In this document: positions 1,569 through 26,200 of the stretch, one piece after another
Layout of the letters: each line of letters begins with the position of its first letter
How positions within the stretch are numbered: the stretch's first letter is position 1
IMG/VR virus record: IMGVR_UViG_3300009703_000086
Coordinates: 1 to 27,424 of that record
Reading direction: 5' to 3' (one strand)
From: a virus
DNA length: 27,424 bases
Notes under the pieces: model-generated
The model's database searches: none
The model's input: only the letters and a program-made list of their open reading frames with translations
Told to the model about the DNA's origin: nothing
Position numbers and translations under genes: made by a program

Positions 1569-3302
1569 CTAGACCCATGTTGGAGTCCCGCCTCTGCCAG
1601 TTTTACCTCTAGCTTTTTGTCTTTGAGCTAGATCCATACCTAATACCATATGGTTAGCGGCAGCTTGAGGATCATCTGTCCATGTGTCTAGTATATCTCT
1701 CCACTCATCTTGTTTACGAAGCTTTACAGTTTCATAGGCTGAGATAGAGAGTGCATCTGTGAAATACTGAACACCTTGGGCCAAACAGTCCAATCTGTCA
1801 TCGTGTTTAACAGCACCTTTCTCTCTACACATTCTCGACATCTGATAGAAAAGCATATAGAGAAGACGTAGTTCCGGAGCTTCATCTGGATTAGAGTTAT
1901 AATCCCAGTCAATAACATTCCTGTTAACACATAAACGATGTTGGTTAAGAACTGGCTCCAAGCTATCAATGATCCTATCTTCCTTCCTAACATTAGCTCG
2001 AACTTCCTCTACATCTATATTCTGTTTGGTCTGTTGGAGGTGCTTCTTGAAGAGTTCGCATACTATTCCGTCACCGAAGTTTGTTTCGACGACGAGTTTT
2101 GTAACTCCGTATCTATTACATCCTTTAAGTATATCCAACAGGGTGCGGTCTGAGTATCCGTCTCTGTAAGCTCGCATTTCATGCAAGTATAGGAACCCGT
2201 TCTTTTGGGATAAGTAAGCTGCTGCTGTCTCATCTGTTCCTCGTCCAGAGGGGTCAACTGAACAAATTGTTTCAGTGTAAGCTCCCCATTCTCCCTGTAA
2301 CTGCATTGGAGAGTAAAAGTAGTCCCCGGGTAGTCCGACTGTAGGGAGTTCTTTGATAACATTTCGGGGGTCTGCGCACCAAACGAGGGCGTCTGGAGCT
2401 TCAGTAGGATTAACGGCAGTGACAATAAGGTCAGCCATTTTGAGGGGGAATTTCTCTGCATCGGATAGGGAGGTATCTAACATGAACTGTAGCATGAAGT
2501 TAGATCTTCCCATGGAAGCTTCACGATCTACAAGATCATCATCATCAAATCGGTCTGGGTCTGTACAGGTACCCGATAGAGCACCTGTATCTATATCCTC
2601 TTGTAACTGAGGAGCTATCAATCCTTCATACTGGGAGAGGTTCTTGGGGTATCGGGCGGGCCAAACGAAGGGACGATACGAACGCTCTGCCAACTTACGA
2701 TAAACAGTAAAAGTAGTCTGAGGAGTCCCGAGATACATAATACGAGAATCGTTTTTTGGCGTAAGGATGGATTCAGCTTCTGTACAGAGTTGAAGTAATT
2801 TCTCACGCATTAACTCCGTCATGGAGTTTCCAGGAACTTCTATATCGTCCAAAATCATTAAATCCGCGCGACTTCCTGTTAGCTGCCCAGTTATGCCCAC
2901 CGACTTTACGCTTGGGGCTTGGTGAGGAGAACAGTTTACGTCGAAGCTGATGCGACTCCAGCGTGAATCGTCTGCTTTCGGTCTTAGATGATTGAGCCAT
3001 GGGGTTTCAATAATAAGTTTCTGTAGGAAGATTGACATGTTGTCTGCTCTCTCTTTAGAGGCAGAAATTATCATTATTTTCTTTTCAGGATCTTTAAAGA
3101 GAGTCCAGAGGACAAAGGCTCCTGTGATCCAACTCTTTCCAACACCACGGAAAGCTTGAATCTGGAGACGTTTAGGTCCATGTTGAAGATAGTCTGCGAT
3201 TGCATATTGTGCTCTAGTTGGGGACGGTAAATCAAGCTGTTCCCATAGTGCTTGTAGGAATAGCTTGAAATCCTCTCGTAAGGCGGTTACGATATTATTC
3301 AT
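1569..3302 (-). CDS. terL: Terminase large subunit (DNA maturase B, T7 gp19-like)
   Basis: The 577-aa protein is the packaging motor and nuclease, close to T7 gp19 (586 aa). The ATPase domain has Walker A FRGVGKS (51-57), Walker B LMILDDIE (148-155, catalytic acidic residue E155) and the coupling motif LGTPQT (191-196). The RuvC-like nuclease domain begins near CSVDPSG (347-353, D350), continues with VVETNFGD (404-411, E406) and ends with HDDRLD (500-505), supplying the acidic metal ligands. The C-terminus TGRGGTPTWV ends in TAG. By eye the gene is GC-richer than its neighbours. It uses the TerS at 5480-5725 and fits the direct-terminal-repeat packaging usual for T7-like phages. Confidence 0.95.
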   Translation of the reverse strand: MNNIVTALREDFKLFLQALWEQLDLPSPTRAQYAIADYLQHGPKRLQIQAFRGVGKSWITGAFVLWTLFKDPEKKIMIISASKERADNMSIFLQKLIIETPWLNHLRPKADDSRWSRISFDVNCSPHQAPSVKSVGITGQLTGSRADLMILDDIEVPGNSMTELMREKLLQLCTEAESILTPKNDSRIMYLGTPQTTFTVYRKLAERSYRPFVWPARYPKNLSQYEGLIAPQLQEDIDTGALSGTCTDPDRFDDDDLVDREASMGRSNFMLQFMLDTSLSDAEKFPLKMADLIVTAVNPTEAPDALVWCADPRNVIKELPTVGLPGDYFYSPMQLQGEWGAYTETICSVDPSGRGTDETAAAYLSQKNGFLYLHEMRAYRDGYSDRTLLDILKGCNRYGVTKLVVETNFGDGIVCELFKKHLQQTKQNIDVEEVRANVRKEDRIIDSLEPVLNQHRLCVNRNVIDWDYNSNPDEAPELRLLYMLFYQMSRMCREKGAVKHDDRLDCLAQGVQYFTDALSISAYETVKLRKQDEWRDILDTWTDDPQAAANHMVLGMDLAQRQKARGKTGRGGTPTWV

Positions 3303-3469
3303 ACTTTTTTAATGTAACGAGTTGCTCCACCACCATAACGCTTCTTATCACCAGTCATTCTTAAGAGTCTTTGATTGATAGGTTCATGTGTTTGGATTGG
3401 GACAATCTTATTAGCATCAGTTATAAGAAGTTTGTCTTTGTTCTTTTTCTTTTTACCTTTTTTTGCCAT
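3299..3469 (-). CDS. 56-aa basic protein before the large terminase
   Basis: The protein starts MAKKGKKKKNKDKLLITDAN and ends with a conserved-looking part: PIQTHEPINQRLLRMTGDKK, then RYGGGATRYIKKV. I prefer the ATG at 3469 over the in-frame ATG at 3490 because the shorter form begins with the usual MAKK pattern and has a purine-rich GGAGAAAAAGAAA stretch before it; the longer form would be 63 aa. The stop TGA overlaps the TerL start (ATGA at 3302-3299), a sign of coupled translation. A Lys-rich head plus a short conserved tail may indicate a terminase partner. The function is unknown. Confidence 0.65.
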   Translation of the reverse strand: MAKKGKKKKNKDKLLITDANKIVPIQTHEPINQRLLRMTGDKKRYGGGATRYIKKV

Positions 3470-3728
3470 GTAATTTCTTTTTCTCCGCATGAAGTCGATC
3501 TTTTAAAGACCTAGTTTTTTCTGCTTCAGAAGAAGCACTTTTGGATAATTTCTTACCAGCTGCTCTAATGCTTTTTCCAAGCATAAATTCAGCTTGTCCT
3601 TTTTTAAAACGTTTTGGTTTATCTGGTTTTTTCTTTTTATCAGGCTTTGCTGGTGGTGCGGGAGTTTTAAGTTTATCTTTCTTTTTCTTCGTAGGATCAA
3701 TAAATCCACCGATCTTTATTTTTGCCAT
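3453..3728 (-). CDS. Lysine-rich basic protein
   Basis: The 91-aa protein begins MAKIKIGGFIDPTKKKKDKL and continues with Lys/Pro-rich stretches (KPDKKKKPDKPKRFKKGQAE at 28-47), then a short, more ordered segment FMLGKSIRAAGKKLSKS and a basic tail ending LHGKKR. About one residue in three is Lys. It has no signal peptide or membrane segment. Such a composition suggests nucleic-acid contact or an unfolded scaffold-like protein, perhaps helping DNA packaging, but that is inference. The start lies two bases after the 503-aa gene's stop, and the end overlaps the next small gene. Confidence 0.65.
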   Translation of the reverse strand: MAKIKIGGFIDPTKKKKDKLKTPAPPAKPDKKKKPDKPKRFKKGQAEFMLGKSIRAAGKKLSKSASSEAEKTRSLKDRLHAEKKKLHGKKR

Positions 3729-3730
3729 AA

Positions 3731-5242
3731 TTAAAGTTGACTAGAGAATGTTTGAGCGAAAGTATCGAGATTTAAGAATGGTTCTAATTCAGTAGCAAAT
3801 ATAATTTGTAATTCTTCTGTAATAGCTCCGGGATCTTTAGATAACCATTTAAAAGTAGGAGGGTTTTGTTTCCAACCTAAATTAGCAGCTACTGCTTTAT
3901 TTTTCATAATCCAATTTCTTATAGCTTCTGGTCCTTGTCTAATAATAAGCTTACCTTGTTCAGATTTATTTAAATGTGCTTTGACAAATCTCAAACGTCT
4001 TTTAGAAACATTAATAACTATATTCTTTTTAATTTGATAAACTTGAGCTATCTCAGCTGCAGCTTGTTTAGGAGTAAGTGTACGCCACTCACCTGATTCA
4101 ACCATTGCTTCAATACGACGTTTAGCAGTAAATTGAGGGGAATTATAACCAGCATAGTGTATAGTTTCTATATGATCCTTAGATAACATCATACCTTGAG
4201 GATCAAATTTAACTTTTGTCCTATCAATATTATTAAATTTCCATCTATTTTGATAAGCTTTTCTTAAATCTGCTGTAGTGACTGGTCTACCATCAGGCCA
4301 AAATTTAGCGACCTTGTAACCAAAACGTTTGCCAGCAATTGCTTTTCCTCTAGGTAATCCATAACTTTGTGGATCTGTAGGAACAGCGTAATCTCCTTCA
4401 AGTTTACCTATTTCAGGAGGTGTGATTTCACCAGTTAATTTATCTCGTGTTCCTTTAGCTAATTCTTTACCTATTTCTGTATCTTTAGGATTTTTAAGTA
4501 CATCTTGAATCAGTCGTTCTTTAGGAGTTTTTTTAACGGATTTGAAATCAACTTCACCTAATTGTCGTGCTATATCATCTTGTGCAGAAAGTCTAAAATC
4601 AGCTGTCTTCTGATCCATCGCACCGATAATATTCTTAGCTCTATCACCAAGTTCAATACCAAAGCGTTTTAATTCTTTAACTATTTCGTCTGAATCTATT
4701 CTATTTAGAATTTTACCAGTCCATTCTAAATCTAAAATATGATGATGTTTAAATGGACCTTCTTGTCCTAATCTCCGACTTTTATTGAAGGCTTTTTCTT
4801 CTGCTAAAGTCCTGCCTTTGTTAGATAGTTGCAGATTTTCATCTCTTACTGAAGACTCAAATCTCTTAGGTACAGGCTCACGATACCTACCATCTTCAGG
4901 AAAGATAGGATTTTTATGCATACCTTCACGATCTATAGCTTTTTTCGCTGATTGGGCAATATCAGAGTCTACTCTCTGAGGTTCTTGTACTCTAAAATCA
5001 TCTCCAAACAACAAACCACCATTAGATGAGCCTCTATTCATAGGAGGAGGTGTAAAGGACTTACCACTATTCATTACTTGTTCAGCTTCTGCAAGAACTG
5101 CTGGAGAATAACCCTGATTTTTCAATACATCCAGTTGTTTAGCTATATCATCACTAGCTTTTACTACTCCTTTTGCAATGTCATCTGCACTTTTGGCTAC
5201 ACCTTTTACACCTGCCCTAATACCTGCTGCAATTGCGCTCAT
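3731..5242 (-). CDS. 503-aa protein of unknown function between the terminase genes
   Basis: I do not recognise the family. The N-terminus has an amphipathic repeat, KGVAKSADDIAKGVVKASDD (13-32). Residues 55-160 are low-complexity and charged. A His cluster KHHHILDLEWTGKILNR lies at 165-181, followed by a charged helical region with ELKRFGIELGDRAKNIIG. A second section (305-425) has RFGYKVAKFWPDGRP, then a block SKDHIETIHYAGYN at 354-367 with two more His, and RRLRFVKAHL. These paired D/H clusters could belong to an HNH-like or metal-binding fold, but no full nuclease motif is visible. The C-terminus is helical. It starts by TAATG coupling to the split small gene and lies in the packaging region, so it may be a packaging or virion protein. 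Confidence 0.6.
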   Translation of the reverse strand: MSAIAAGIRAGVKGVAKSADDIAKGVVKASDDIAKQLDVLKNQGYSPAVLAEAEQVMNSGKSFTPPPMNRGSSNGGLLFGDDFRVQEPQRVDSDIAQSAKKAIDREGMHKNPIFPEDGRYREPVPKRFESSVRDENLQLSNKGRTLAEEKAFNKSRRLGQEGPFKHHHILDLEWTGKILNRIDSDEIVKELKRFGIELGDRAKNIIGAMDQKTADFRLSAQDDIARQLGEVDFKSVKKTPKERLIQDVLKNPKDTEIGKELAKGTRDKLTGEITPPEIGKLEGDYAVPTDPQSYGLPRGKAIAGKRFGYKVAKFWPDGRPVTTADLRKAYQNRWKFNNIDRTKVKFDPQGMMLSKDHIETIHYAGYNSPQFTAKRRIEAMVESGEWRTLTPKQAAAEIAQVYQIKKNIVINVSKRRLRFVKAHLNKSEQGKLIIRQGPEAIRNWIMKNKAVAANLGWKQNPPTFKWLSKDPGAITEELQIIFATELEPFLNLDTFAQTFSSQL

Positions 5243-5502
5243 TATTTCTTCCTCGCTTTTAGACGACTTTTACGGTTGGTTGATGGTTTTTGTAATCGAC
5301 CTTTTGTTTTACTACCTTTATAATGGGCAGCATCAAGACCATCGTGGTTTCCTTTAGTACCAAGTTTATTATTTAAGTTATCAGCATTCCTTCTGATTTC
5401 TTTACCCTTCTCTGTTTGCATATAAGCTTTCTATTGTTTAAGACGTTTAGCTTTAGCTTTAGGATTCTTTTTATAGTACTCAGCGGTTGACTGCTTTGCC
5501 AT
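5242..5502 (-). pseudogene. Small basic marine-phage protein split by an in-frame TAG at codon 24
   Basis: With a strong AGGAGG four bases upstream, an ATG at 5502 opens MAKQSTAEYYKKNPKAKAKR, then LKQ, then TAG at 5433-5431. The same frame continues without another stop to TAA at 5244-5242: KAYMQTEKGKEIRR..., LNNKLGTKGNHDGLDAAHYK, then Lys/Arg-rich. Read through, it gives an 86-residue basic protein of the YYKKNP...NKLGTxGNxDGxDAxHYKG type I know from marine phages as one uninterrupted protein. An ATG at 5421, nine bases after the TAG, could restart translation and yield a 59-aa second part. The last base of TAA starts the next gene. The break may be a real nonsense change, suppressed or restarted translation, or a sequence error. 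Confidence 0.68.
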
Positions 5503-5725
5503 ATAGCCTCCTATTAACTAGATCTGGATCTACTTTGGGCATGATTTTATTTAACTTATCTAATGGATTCCCATCGTAAGCAACACCACTTATATCATTT
5601 ATTTTAAGCCAATCACAGGCTGCTTTTAAGTCCTGAGTACTAGCCTCACCACTCTTAACTCTTTTAAGGAATTCATTAGTGACGAGGTTATGTAACTCAT
5701 TAAACTGTTGTTCAGTTGCTTTCAT
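5480..5725 (-). CDS. terS: Terminase small subunit (DNA maturase A, T7 gp18-like)
   Basis: The 81-aa protein is close to the T7 gp18 length (89 aa). It starts MKATEQQFNELHNLVTNEFL, then KRVKSGEASTQDLKAACDWL, which is the helix-turn-helix-like N-terminal pattern of small terminases in marine phages (GEAST-x-DL-x-A). Residues 45-81 contain PLDKLNKIMPKVDPDL, likely the oligomerisation and TerL-contact tail. It would recognise phage DNA and regulate packaging by TerL at 1569-3302. Unusually, three or four genes separate the two subunits; in T7 they are close together. The downstream gene's Shine-Dalgarno and start (5502) lie inside its last codons. Confidence 0.78.
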   Translation of the reverse strand: MKATEQQFNELHNLVTNEFLKRVKSGEASTQDLKAACDWLKINDISGVAYDGNPLDKLNKIMPKVDPDLVNRRLYGKAVNR

Positions 5726-6248: not shown

Positions 6249-6400
6249 GAAAATAGTTTTTCTTTTACAATTTCGAGAGCTTTATCATCAAGTTTATTAT
6301 CAGTTCTCTTTACATAAGCATCTAATACATCGATTATCAGCTGCTTAACAGAATCTGATTTAATAAAGGCGAGAAGGATGGGCTTGATTAATAGTGTCAT
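6245..6400 (-). CDS. 51-aa small protein
   Basis: A short ORF starts ATG at 6400 overlapping the previous stop (ATGA) and ends TGA at 6247-6245, again overlapping the next start (ATGA). It reads MTLLIKPILLAFIKSDSVKQ, then a helical segment LIIDVLDAYVKRTDNKLDDK and a short basic tail. The N-terminal 13 residues are hydrophobic; the rest is charged and helical. It resembles small conserved proteins found between exported-protein and terminase genes in marine phages. The four-base overlaps on both sides make it very likely to be translated. Its role is unknown; a small membrane-associated lysis or assembly factor is possible. Confidence 0.75.
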   Translation of the reverse strand: MTLLIKPILLAFIKSDSVKQLIIDVLDAYVKRTDNKLDDKALEIVKEKLFS

Positions 6401-7314
6401 TGTTTTAGTGGACATTTGTTAGGTTTATGCCAAGGTTTATACCAAGGCTTTGGTGGTTCTTTACATTTAAGAACCTTTTTCTCTGCTGCTTTGAAAGCAG
6501 AAATAGGAATTACATCACTACAGAGATGATATACCCGTGAACCGGGTACTAACATGAAACCTTTCTGTTGAAGTTTTGCACAGTTATCAATTCTAACTAG
6601 CTCATAATTCAACTTCATCTTATCATGCTGCTGTTTTGCTATAGCTCTACAGCGATTTAAACCTTCTCTATCAAGAGGCACCATAAAATTCACTTGGAAT
6701 CCCCAGTTTTCAGCTACAGTATAGCTTTGTTGATCCATTGCGTCATCAAATGGTGTCGTATGATTCCCCATATAGAATGGAGAGAAGGTCATTGTTGATC
6801 CGTTACAACTTATGTTTGGTCCGTATACCTGACGCGAAGGGGCTCCGTTATTTTGGAACTGGACGGCTTGATTTGTAACGTTTCCTGTAGCCGCTGCCAC
6901 AGGGTTTGAAGTATTGTTGGTTTCTCCCTCTTCAGCATAACTTGGAACTCCTATTGAGAGAATACTGATAATGATACCGTAGTAGAAGTAGTGTCGATTT
7001 CTCTTTCTATTTCTGTTACTGACAGTACCTGACTGGCTGCTCTTGTCACTACTTCGAGTGAAAAGGGATCGCCAGCTGTGTGGAGAGTGAATACCGAATC
7101 GGAATCCACTATTCCGCCTGATGTAGCGGAGGTATGGGTTATATTCTCCCCACTCCACTTGTTCAAGGCTGACCCGTAAGTTGTCGTTGTAATTTCCTCG
7201 ACAATCTCCTGAGTCGTTGTAGTTGTTGAGTTCATTGACCCTTGGGTGAACTGAGGGGTCACTAACTCTGCTCTTGCTACCGAGGGTGAAAACAGTAGGA
7301 AGAGTAAAAGCCAT
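6397..7314 (-). CDS. Exported conserved protein; start unclear (true gene probably residues ~100-305)
   Basis: The ORF of 305 codons opens at an ATG only eight bases inside the previous gene, in the -1 frame. Residues 1-98 are low-complexity and Ser/Asn/Arg-rich, looking like a chance reading of the overlapping gene. From about residue 101 it looks like a real exported protein: RNRKRNRHYF (basic), a hydrophobic stretch YYGIIISILSIGVP, and a cleavage site after SYA (about 127). Then come NPVAAATGNVTNQAVQFQNN, CNGSTMTFSPFYMGNHTTP and a Cys-containing C-terminal half, which I associate with a conserved cyanophage protein. No ATG, GTG or TTG occurs in this frame near the signal sequence; the nearest is GTG at 7158. 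Function unknown. Confidence 0.6.
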   Translation of the reverse strand: MAFTLPTVFTLGSKSRVSDPSVHPRVNELNNYNDSGDCRGNYNDNLRVSLEQVEWGEYNPYLRYIRRNSGFRFGIHSPHSWRSLFTRSSDKSSQSGTVSNRNRKRNRHYFYYGIIISILSIGVPSYAEEGETNNTSNPVAAATGNVTNQAVQFQNNGAPSRQVYGPNISCNGSTMTFSPFYMGNHTTPFDDAMDQQSYTVAENWGFQVNFMVPLDREGLNRCRAIAKQQHDKMKLNYELVRIDNCAKLQQKGFMLVPGSRVYHLCSDVIPISAFKAAEKKVLKCKEPPKPWYKPWHKPNKCPLKQ

Positions 7315-7322
7315 TTTTTCAT
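6951..7322 (-). CDS. Secreted protein with signal peptide (first of two overlapping genes)
   Basis: The 123-aa protein begins MKKWLLLFLLFSPSVARA, a clean signal peptide with a probable signal peptidase I site after ARA at residue 18. The mature part is Thr/Ser-rich (NSTTTTTQEIVEEITTTTYG at 31-50), predicted beta, and ends TVSLSVFSQ. I recall similar exported proteins in cyanophages, always followed by the relative of the next gene. The start at 7322 overlaps the holin-like stop (ATGA). Its stop is TAG at 6951-6953. Nearly all of the gene (to 6951) is also open in another frame, which belongs to the next ORF. The function is unknown; the likely location is periplasm or outer membrane. Confidence 0.72.
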   Translation of the reverse strand: MKKWLLLFLLFSPSVARAELVTPQFTQGSMNSTTTTTQEIVEEITTTTYGSALNKWSGENITHTSATSGGIVDSDSVFTLHTAGDPFSLEVVTRAASQVLSVTEIEREIDTTSTTVSLSVFSQ

Positions 7323-7624
7323 TCTTCCTTTTTCTTTGCCATAGGACAGTTCATTGGTTTACCTTTGTCTTTAGAATTACCAGTAGACAAGCCAAAAGTG
7401 GCTAATGCACCAGTAAACACCGAAGCCACGAACGTGATATCTGAGTTACCGGATTTCTTAACCATAGGTAGTTCTACGTAGTTTAAAGTTATTATAAACC
7501 CGGACCACACCACAACACCCAATCTGACAAACGTACCGAGGATCTGAATCTGTTGTTCTTGATCTTCTATTCCGTCTTTGAGCTTTTTGATGAGTCCTTT
7601 TTTTTCTTCTGGTTTTCCTTCCAT
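7319..7624 (-). CDS. Holin-like small membrane protein (two TM segments)
   Basis: The 101-aa protein has a charged N-terminus (MEGKPEEKKGLIKKLKDGIE), one hydrophobic segment at about 28-48 (ILGTFVRLGVVVWSGFIITL), a short polar turn, a second at about 62-80 (ITFVASVFTGALATFGL), and a Lys/Glu-rich tail. Two helices, small size and charged ends fit a class II holin, and the neighbours are exported or membrane proteins. Similar small proteins are common in marine cyanophages. No endolysin gene is seen in the window, so the lysis role is inferred from structure and context only. It overlaps the following signal-peptide gene by four bases (ATGA). Confidence 0.65.
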   Translation of the reverse strand: MEGKPEEKKGLIKKLKDGIEDQEQQIQILGTFVRLGVVVWSGFIITLNYVELPMVKKSGNSDITFVASVFTGALATFGLSTGNSKDKGKPMNCPMAKKKEE

Positions 7625-7965
7625 TTATTAACTTTAGCTTGTAGTTGCTTTTGAACTTTCTTTTTGATGGGTTCAAATAAAGATTGAGTAACAGTGGTGG
7701 TTGTTACTGCTATGACAGCTGTTGTTACAGCCGTAACTACTACTGCAGTTTCTGGTATTGGCATTTTAATATCAATAACCGGAATCTTTAGAGTAGGTTG
7801 TGCGGGTTCTTCTGTAGTCTCTTCCGCTTCTACCTCTTCAGGGGGCTCCAAATCGGCTGGGGGTACGATCATAGGTTTATAAGCCGGAACGTCCGCTGTA
7901 GGCTGTCTGAGGTACAATTGAGGGATATCTAGAGCCTTGGGTAGGGTTACTCTAGGTATATTCAT
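7567..7965 (-). CDS. Single-TM protein with Pro/Glu-rich N-terminus and Lys-rich C-terminus
   Basis: The 132-aa protein has three parts: a Pro/Glu/Thr-rich N-terminal region (1-65, with PPADLEPPEEVEAEETTEEP), one Val/Thr/Ala-rich hydrophobic segment (about 72-95), and a strongly basic C-terminal tail (about 100-132, KKKVQKQLQAKVNKWKENQK followed by more Lys). The charge distribution predicts the C-terminus inside the cell and the acidic N-terminus outside. It sits between the fibre cassette and a holin-like gene, whose start lies inside it (58-base overlap). It could be a lysis accessory or spanin-like protein, but no family is recognised with confidence. Its stop codon is TAG, which matters for the amber-interrupted gene at 5242-5502. 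Confidence 0.65.
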   Translation of the reverse strand: MNIPRVTLPKALDIPQLYLRQPTADVPAYKPMIVPPADLEPPEEVEAEETTEEPAQPTLKIPVIDIKMPIPETAVVVTAVTTAVIAVTTTTVTQSLFEPIKKKVQKQLQAKVNKWKENQKKKKDSSKSSKTE

Positions 7966-23260: not shown

Positions 23261-26200
23261 GTTGATAGTATCTTGGTGAATAATCTCCTTCCCAGTTCAT
23301 TGAATGAATGGTAGCTGGAGATGGGTGATTAGATTTTAATAGTACTGTTAGATTTTCATTTCTATCATATACTGGTATTGTATGTAAATATCCTTTAGCA
23401 ATAGTAGCTGTACTTGCTAGTACATTATCCCATTCTAAAGATTCAACTGTATATGTATAATCATCTCTTCCTCTTCTCTTAAGTGTAACATCTATCACAC
23501 CTACATCGCCAAAGTCAAAGTTCATTCTATGAATGATTAAAGAACCTCTAGTTTCAGATGTTATTGATTGACCACTTTGTTGGACGATATAAATCTTAGG
23601 TAATTCAACTTCAAATTCATACTCATATCCTACAATTAAATCAGTATTAACTGCACTTCCATCTTTAAGAGAGGTCTTCCAGTTACCGGGTAGTGTTACT
23701 GTTTGGTTAGGGGCAGTACCAGTTATCTTAGCAGCTGGCACATCATAACTCTTACCTGCAGCATCACTATCTGTTGTACAATAAACTGTTAAATTTTCAG
23801 AACTATAATAACCTGAACCTAATGTAAATGTAGTGACATCAGTTGCACCAACATAAGTTAAATCACCTGATGCAATAGTTTTCTTAGTATCTAAATGTAC
23901 CCTATTTTCATCAGGAGTAGAACCTATCATAGGTGTGTCTGAAGTTAATTTTATGTCAAATTTTTCAAAGGTAAATTTATTGTTACTTCCTGTACTCAAT
24001 ACGGCATAGTATACATCATCCAATATGGTATGATATATAACCTTATTAGGCATTGTCCATCTGAACCATGCTGACTGGGCTCTTTTGCCACCAGACTCAA
24101 AGTACTTATAACCCCATATTTCATTTGTAGCAGCATGTAATGTACTGTCTACACCAAATAAAAGTACATCATTTTCGTTTGATTCACATACACTTGTAAT
24201 ATTTTGTGGAAATAATTCTCCTACAATTTTACTTTGTTCTTGTATATCTGGTTCTTCTTTAGTTGCTACATTAGCCATTTCATAGAAACGTGTTTGCCTA
24301 GCAGTACTGTTTAAGAAGCCTATAGTTGTACCTAATGAAACTGGTACTGTATCTTTATTAAAACCATATGATGCTAAAAATCCAATCTTAGCTGTCTCAG
24401 GAGTAAGCAAAGCTTCTGCACCTGAACTTAATAAGAATTGTTCACTAGCACTAAAGATAACTAAACCACCTGCAGATTCTACTGCATCAAATAATTTAGT
24501 TGGAAATTTAGAACTAGATTGTAAGTCAATAGGGTCAGCGTTAGATATAGCCATAGCTGTCTTAACCCAGAAGCTATAGTAATCGTTCACCCTAGATAGA
24601 ATGACATTTTCATTACTGAGTAAAGCTATTCTATTCCTAAAGAACAACATCTTTTGAATAGTATTGCCTATGAAGGTAGGTTTAGAGTTAGTGATATCAT
24701 CACCTACATCACGTTCACCCCAATCAGGATAATCAAATTTAAAACATCCGTTAGTATAATTTCTTGCTGTACCACCATTAATAGAATAAATATCTGTTAA
24801 TGTCTGAGCATTGTTTCCAGTACCAGTTAAGTTAATAGCTGTACCAGCTGTAGCATTACTATCATTTGTGGCCAATTTGATCGAATTATCATCTACTATA
24901 ATAGCATAATATGTTGTATCATTAGTTAGACCTGCTAAAGTAGTACCGCCTCCATTACTATATTTTAATGATTGACCTGTGTTATATCCATGCGCATTTA
25001 TAGTTATTACTTCAGTACTTGTATTAACTGCTGATGTAGCTATAGTATCTACTTGACTAGGAGGAACCCTAACAAGCTCTAAGGGCATTGTATCTTTATC
25101 TAACTTAACATCTATCCCCGGTGCTGCTACCTCTTCCCACACGCCCTCTCCGAAGCGAGCTGGGGTATATGTACAGAAAGCACCTGCATTGATTGTACCA
25201 GATGAAGAGTTACTTGCTAAATCGAAAGCATCAGTTGATACGTTTGATACGGTATAATGTCCATCTCCTGCACCTCCACTAGTGAAATCGATAAAGACTG
25301 TATCTCCATTACTTAATCCATGAGCTGTAGATGCTACACTAACTGTAGTACCAGTTCTAGAATATGTAGAGTTTATAGAAATGTTTGCACTAATACCTTC
25401 AGCTTGGAAACGTAGATAGTAATCATCCATATCCTCACCACTGTTTACCACACGGACAATGTATCCATGTCTGCATACACGTGGTAGGTCTGCTATATTA
25501 TTTACCTCAGTTGTAGCAATAGACATTAAACTTCTTTCAGGTGTAGTCACGCCAAAAGGAGTAGCTCTATATAAATGTAAACCGTTACCACATATAGTTG
25601 TAGTAATACCAGTACCACTGATTGCATCTAATGTTGCTTTTAAGTCACCTAATATAGCTGCTGAAGATACATGCTCTTCACTTGTAGAAGATGTAGCATC
25701 TGGCCTAACTGCAGCTATATTAGCTCTAGATGTAATAGTTTGTATAGCTTTTACTTTAATGGTTGTTGTGACACCTTTCTCTGATGTATATTGGTGAGTA
25801 TCATCTACTGCCCAACCTTCTCCACCAAACTGTAATTTAGCAAATGGTTGATATGTATCATGATATGTGTAACTATCATCTACAGGTGCTGTAGGTTGAG
25901 GTGTACATCTAACATCCATCTCATACCTTAATCTACTCTTACCATCAGCACTCATGTTAGGTGGTGAGGTTCCAAATTTATCTGTACCTGTACTTATATC
26001 GACAGTCTCTCTACCCATACCTAGACAGTCACCATTAGATGATCCACTGTAACTTGTACCATCATCAGCTGCTATAGATGTAGCTCTAGTATGTGTATAG
26101 GTAGTATTATCATCTGGGTCAAATATATCTAATGCATACTGTTTACCATAAGATATAGTATCAAGAGTTATGAAAGCTTCATTTAACTGAGCTGGAGACT

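Follow-up and report, generated by a model that had tools for sequence, protein, structure and literature searches.

Gene order and the interrupted small gene

The window analyzed here, the whole of a 27,424-base virus record, covers the late region of an uncultured T7-like marine cyanophage (cyanopodovirus). Its large terminase subunit (TerL) is 87% identical to that of cyanophage NATL1A-7 and 85% identical to that of P-SSP7. Between the gene for the small terminase subunit (TerS) and a 503-aa gene sits a small gene whose first 23 bases (5480-5502) are shared with the last part of the TerS gene. The same position directly after TerS, with an overlap, is found in P-SSP7, P-SSP2, NATL1A-7, and the closest syntenic contig, IMG/VR 3300044298_003704 (here L002). 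The features considered are as follows:

1569-3302, minus strand: large terminase subunit of the T7 gp19 type, assigned by family matches, with a genuine TAG at the gene end
3731-5242, minus strand: 503-aa gene downstream of the small gene, with its own Shine-Dalgarno sequence and an L002 ortholog
5242-5502, minus strand: small gene of the phrog_6437 family, 86 codons plus TAA with one in-frame TAG, recognized by translation, family match, and L002 ortholog
5480-5725, minus strand: TerS gene (PF11123, E = 3.2e-16; phrog_891)
5507-5512, minus strand: AGGAGG Shine-Dalgarno of the small gene, read from the sequence, with a calculated duplex of -10.2 kcal/mol with the anti-Shine-Dalgarno
5434-5502, minus strand: N-terminal 23 codons ahead of the TAG, a predicted basic helical arm (fold model helices 6-12 and 14-28)
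5431-5433, minus strand: in-frame TAG at codon 24, which is Gln in all relatives examined
5242-5421, minus strand: 59-aa frame from an internal ATG, a possible reinitiation product whose start is not conserved in relatives

Read from 5502 to 5242 on the minus strand, the small gene translates as MAKQSTAEYYKKNPKAKAKRLKQ*KAYMQTEKGKEIRRNADNLNNKLGTKGNHDGLDAAHYKGSKTKGRLQKPSTNRKSRLKARKK*, 86 codons of which the TAG at codon 24 is the sole break. The first-pass annotation had described a strong AGGAGG at the start, a TAG at 5433-5431, an ATG 9 bases farther on, and a TAATG at the end, and each of these is present in the sequence: AATAGGAGG precedes the start ATG at 5502, the internal ATG lies at 5421-5419, and TAATG joins the small gene to the 503-aa gene. 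The annotation had also taken the two sides of the TAG for a single protein, a view that gains strength from two results. The read-through protein matches phrog_6437, an uncharacterised family, at residues 2-85 of 86 (E = 1.6e-20), and because this match spans the TAG, the two sides belong to one gene rather than to a chance frame. In comparison with L002, substitutions are mostly synonymous on either side of the TAG, with dN/dS of about 0.11 before and 0.08 after it (values that rest on few sites). The continuous open reading frame expected of phrog_6437 is broken in the window copy at codon 24. P-SSP7 gp48 (YP_214225.1) and NATL1A-7 CYIG_00055 resemble the window copy in place, size (78-86 aa), family, and predicted fold, while all inspected members of phrog_6437 have Gln where the window copy has TAG. 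Judged by its sequence, the small gene is a conserved gene for an uncharacterised protein of the cyanophage packaging region.

An AlphaFold2 model of the small protein (mean pLDDT 87) shows three helices (6-12, 14-28, and 31-47) followed by a beta-beta-alpha arrangement, whose first strand carries D57 and H60 and whose helix, the last of the model, carries N76-R77; all four residues are invariant. Comparison of the protein with Pfam and the PDB gave no significant match, and comparison with viral folds gave weak matches only, among them models of HNH and endonuclease VII proteins, at E values between 0.5 and 10. The element order of the predicted fold is suggestive of HNH nucleases, a resemblance that we treat as a lead only. 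The gene lies next to TerS, and in P-SSP7 also next to a gene annotated as an HNH endonuclease, which suggests that the protein may serve as a packaging accessory.

Codon 24 among relatives of the small gene

The alignment of relatives that the first-pass annotation had proposed as a check showed Gln at codon 24 throughout and TAG in none. All 80 IMG/VR relatives encode Gln there, half with CAA and half with CAG (40 each), and all are full length, beginning at the upstream start and running without an internal stop, so that the combination of stop and restart occurs in 0 of 80. Gln at codon 24 was found as well in the 11 isolate or fosmid phages inspected (S-CBP1, DSL-LC07, S-CBP3, MedDCM S28-C3, MedDCM S45-C4, S-SBP1, S-B28, S-RIP2, P-SSP2, P-SSP3, and P-SSP7). 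Gln23 and Gln24 are invariant in an alignment of 62 relatives, part of which was gathered with a pattern containing both residues. Some relatives were thus found by patterns that include the Gln codons, while the isolate genomes and most of the IMG/VR gathering patterns were free of them.

L002 shares with the window its gene order, the rare 503-aa gene, and the TAATG join, but its small gene (3413-3673) is intact, encoding 86 aa at 93% protein identity, and has CAA at codon 24 where the window has TAG. Searching all 2.9 million IMG/VR contigs with a pattern that has TAG at codon 24 returned 9 matches, all attributable to chance and none of them a relative: eight are unrelated frames, and the ninth did not match the protein pattern. 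The equivalent pattern with CAG returned at least 120 matches, and those inspected are relatives. When we looked for copies from the same population by a flank pattern, only two contigs, L011 and L214 (the latter the same contig as L012), matched the 45-base stretch around codon 24, both with CAG there, and a second pattern returned none. DNA identity to the nearest relatives is about 90%, the searched set may omit records very near the window, and these searches showed no intact copy from the same population.

Two other published copies of the small gene have escaped annotation. In P-GSP1 (NC_020878; locus L084, 2925-3174), the reason is that two A runs are each one base shorter than in a related copy, L049 (A7 against A8 and A5 against A6), and we consider these shortenings likely to be pyrosequencing errors. 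The P-GSP1 gene is like the window copy in being broken, and within a few codons of codon 24, but it is broken by two one-base shortenings of A runs rather than by a stop substitution. In the uncultured phage MedDCM-OCT-S28-C3 (AP013539.1, 16672-16905), the gene is open but unannotated, apparently because there is no ATG start at the usual place.

Readings of the in-frame TAG

Four window genes have TAG as their final codon, as the first-pass annotation had stated, and for three of them (terL, 6951-7322, and 7567-7965) this is further backed by relatives that terminate at or near the same place. When window genes were compared with their kin from P-SSP7, NATL1A-7, or L002, the TAG at codon 24 was the only in-gene stop; the remaining stops in those comparisons lie ahead of an annotated gene start, in a wrong frame, or in a non-coding stretch near 892. 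Wholesale recoding of TAG, which the annotation had already thought unlikely, is ruled out by the genuine TAG stops together with the restriction to a single gene. A tRNA search found none in the window (some 18 kb more of the phage genome would lie outside it if the phage is of the size of its kin), none in P-SSP7, and only a tRNA-Gly(tcc) in NATL1A-7; thus, no tRNA with a CTA anticodon was found in any of the three. A literature search on in-frame amber codons in cyanophages returned nothing.

Besides a nonsense change and a sequence error, the first-pass annotation had offered local suppression and a natural two-part gene; the first two of these four options are supported, while the absence of TAG from the codon 24 of every relative speaks against the other two. 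Under suppression, a suppressor tRNA from either the host or the phage would insert an amino acid, probably Gln, at the TAG. Suppression would account for the continuity of the protein and the low dN/dS after the stop, and recoding of TAG to Gln is known from other phages (PMC9523058, PMC11210395). Like genes of TAG-recoding phages (code 15, Crassvirales and others), the window gene does have TAG in frame where Gln would stand. In code-15 phages, however, many genes are recoded, and about half of those predicted carry a CTA suppressor tRNA (PMC11210395), whereas the window has one affected site, no tRNA, and genuine TAG stops in terL and other genes. We regard suppression or read-through as very improbable. 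A natural two-part gene would instead make a 23-aa peptide and, by stop and restart at ATG 5421, a 59-aa protein in which the conserved C-terminal core is retained. This is an arrangement to which the ATG only 9 bases beyond the TAG lends itself, as do the location of the whole predicted beta-beta-alpha end, with the invariant D57, H60, N76, and R77, inside the 59-aa frame and the shorter, different N terminus of some relatives (P-SSP7, P-SSP2, and P-SSP3). Those short-armed relatives nevertheless keep the QQ pair, and 9 of the 13 residues invariant in the 62-relative alignment precede Met28. The first-pass annotation had asked whether homologues all start at the position of ATG 5421; none does. 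Among the 80 relatives, only 12 have Met at residue 28 and the others have Asn or Gln there, so ATG 5421 is by descent an internal residue. The bases upstream of this ATG pair with the anti-Shine-Dalgarno at -0.4 kcal/mol, against -10.2 kcal/mol at the true start. A natural two-part gene appears quite unlikely. We hold it very unlikely, a shade more so, that the TAG has become fixed in this lineage and divides a terminase-associated protein into two products, of which the 59-aa C-terminal one arises by termination-reinitiation.

Taken together, the relatives, the genuine TAG stops, the lack of a tRNA in the window, the near absence of a Shine-Dalgarno at ATG 5421, and the separate Shine-Dalgarno of the 503-aa gene make recoding, suppression, and a two-part gene unlikely. 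We therefore conclude that the TAG is very probably an isolated lesion without any decoding device, either a nonsense mutation in the phage or in a minority variant or an error in the consensus. A single C-to-T change in the common codon CAG would suffice to produce TAG at the otherwise invariant Gln codon. Purifying selection on both sides of the stop indicates that the lesion is recent or is absent from the population. We put the chances that the nonsense mutation is truly present, in the phage that was sequenced or in a minority variant, at about even. That the consensus or the assembly alone is wrong and the phage gene intact, which is one part of the isolated-lesion reading, is a lesser but real possibility. 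The uniqueness of the lesion and the selection on both sides of it are consistent with such an error, and published copies of the small gene, for example that of P-GSP1, also seem to be damaged by sequencing. The change here is, however, a substitution rather than a homopolymer indel, and we found no further internal stops in the genes of the contig that have kin, indicating that the contig is not error-ridden.

If the TAG is real, ribosomes starting from the strong AGGAGG would produce a 23-aa fragment, and weak reinitiation at ATG 5421 by some of them may yield a 59-aa protein that lacks the N-terminal arm. Helix 31-47 and the beta-beta-alpha end, both predicted, would remain in such a product. 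Translation of the 503-aa gene would continue from that gene's own ribosome-binding site. A lone TAG of this kind is in itself ordinary and of little importance, and the recoding or suppression reading of it is largely closed off; a real stop would, however, amount to a natural test of whether the phage can do without the small protein, or without the N-terminal arm of that protein.

The 503-aa gene and other features of the window

The Shine-Dalgarno sequence of the 503-aa gene, GAGGAAG, pairs with the anti-Shine-Dalgarno at -8.0 kcal/mol. The first-pass annotation had held that this gene loses its translational coupling unless the second part of the small gene is translated, which overstates the dependence, because with a ribosome-binding site of its own the gene does not need translation of that part. 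A family search with the 503-aa protein gave no match. Its one relative in IMG/VR is the L002 protein (70% identity), and there is none among 50,697 phage records. The fold model, made from these two sequences only, is uninformative (pLDDT 41.5). The gene stands where P-SSP7 has the HNH endonuclease and the gene following it, and its protein contains a KHHHILDLE motif.

Elsewhere in the window, the frames 6397-7314 and 6951-7322 overlap by more than 360 bases in different reading frames, and L002 and NATL1A-7 conserve the two of them. The non-coding stretch at 780-1000, past the terL end, is 81% identical in DNA to NATL1A-7 (24759-24991) and 76% identical to a further sequence, L133, and an Rfam search with it gave no match. 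On the minus strand, this stretch is predicted to form a long G+C-rich hairpin (z = -3.0; 1 of 200 shuffled sequences was equally stable) and may be an element of the genome end, of processing, or of a small RNA.
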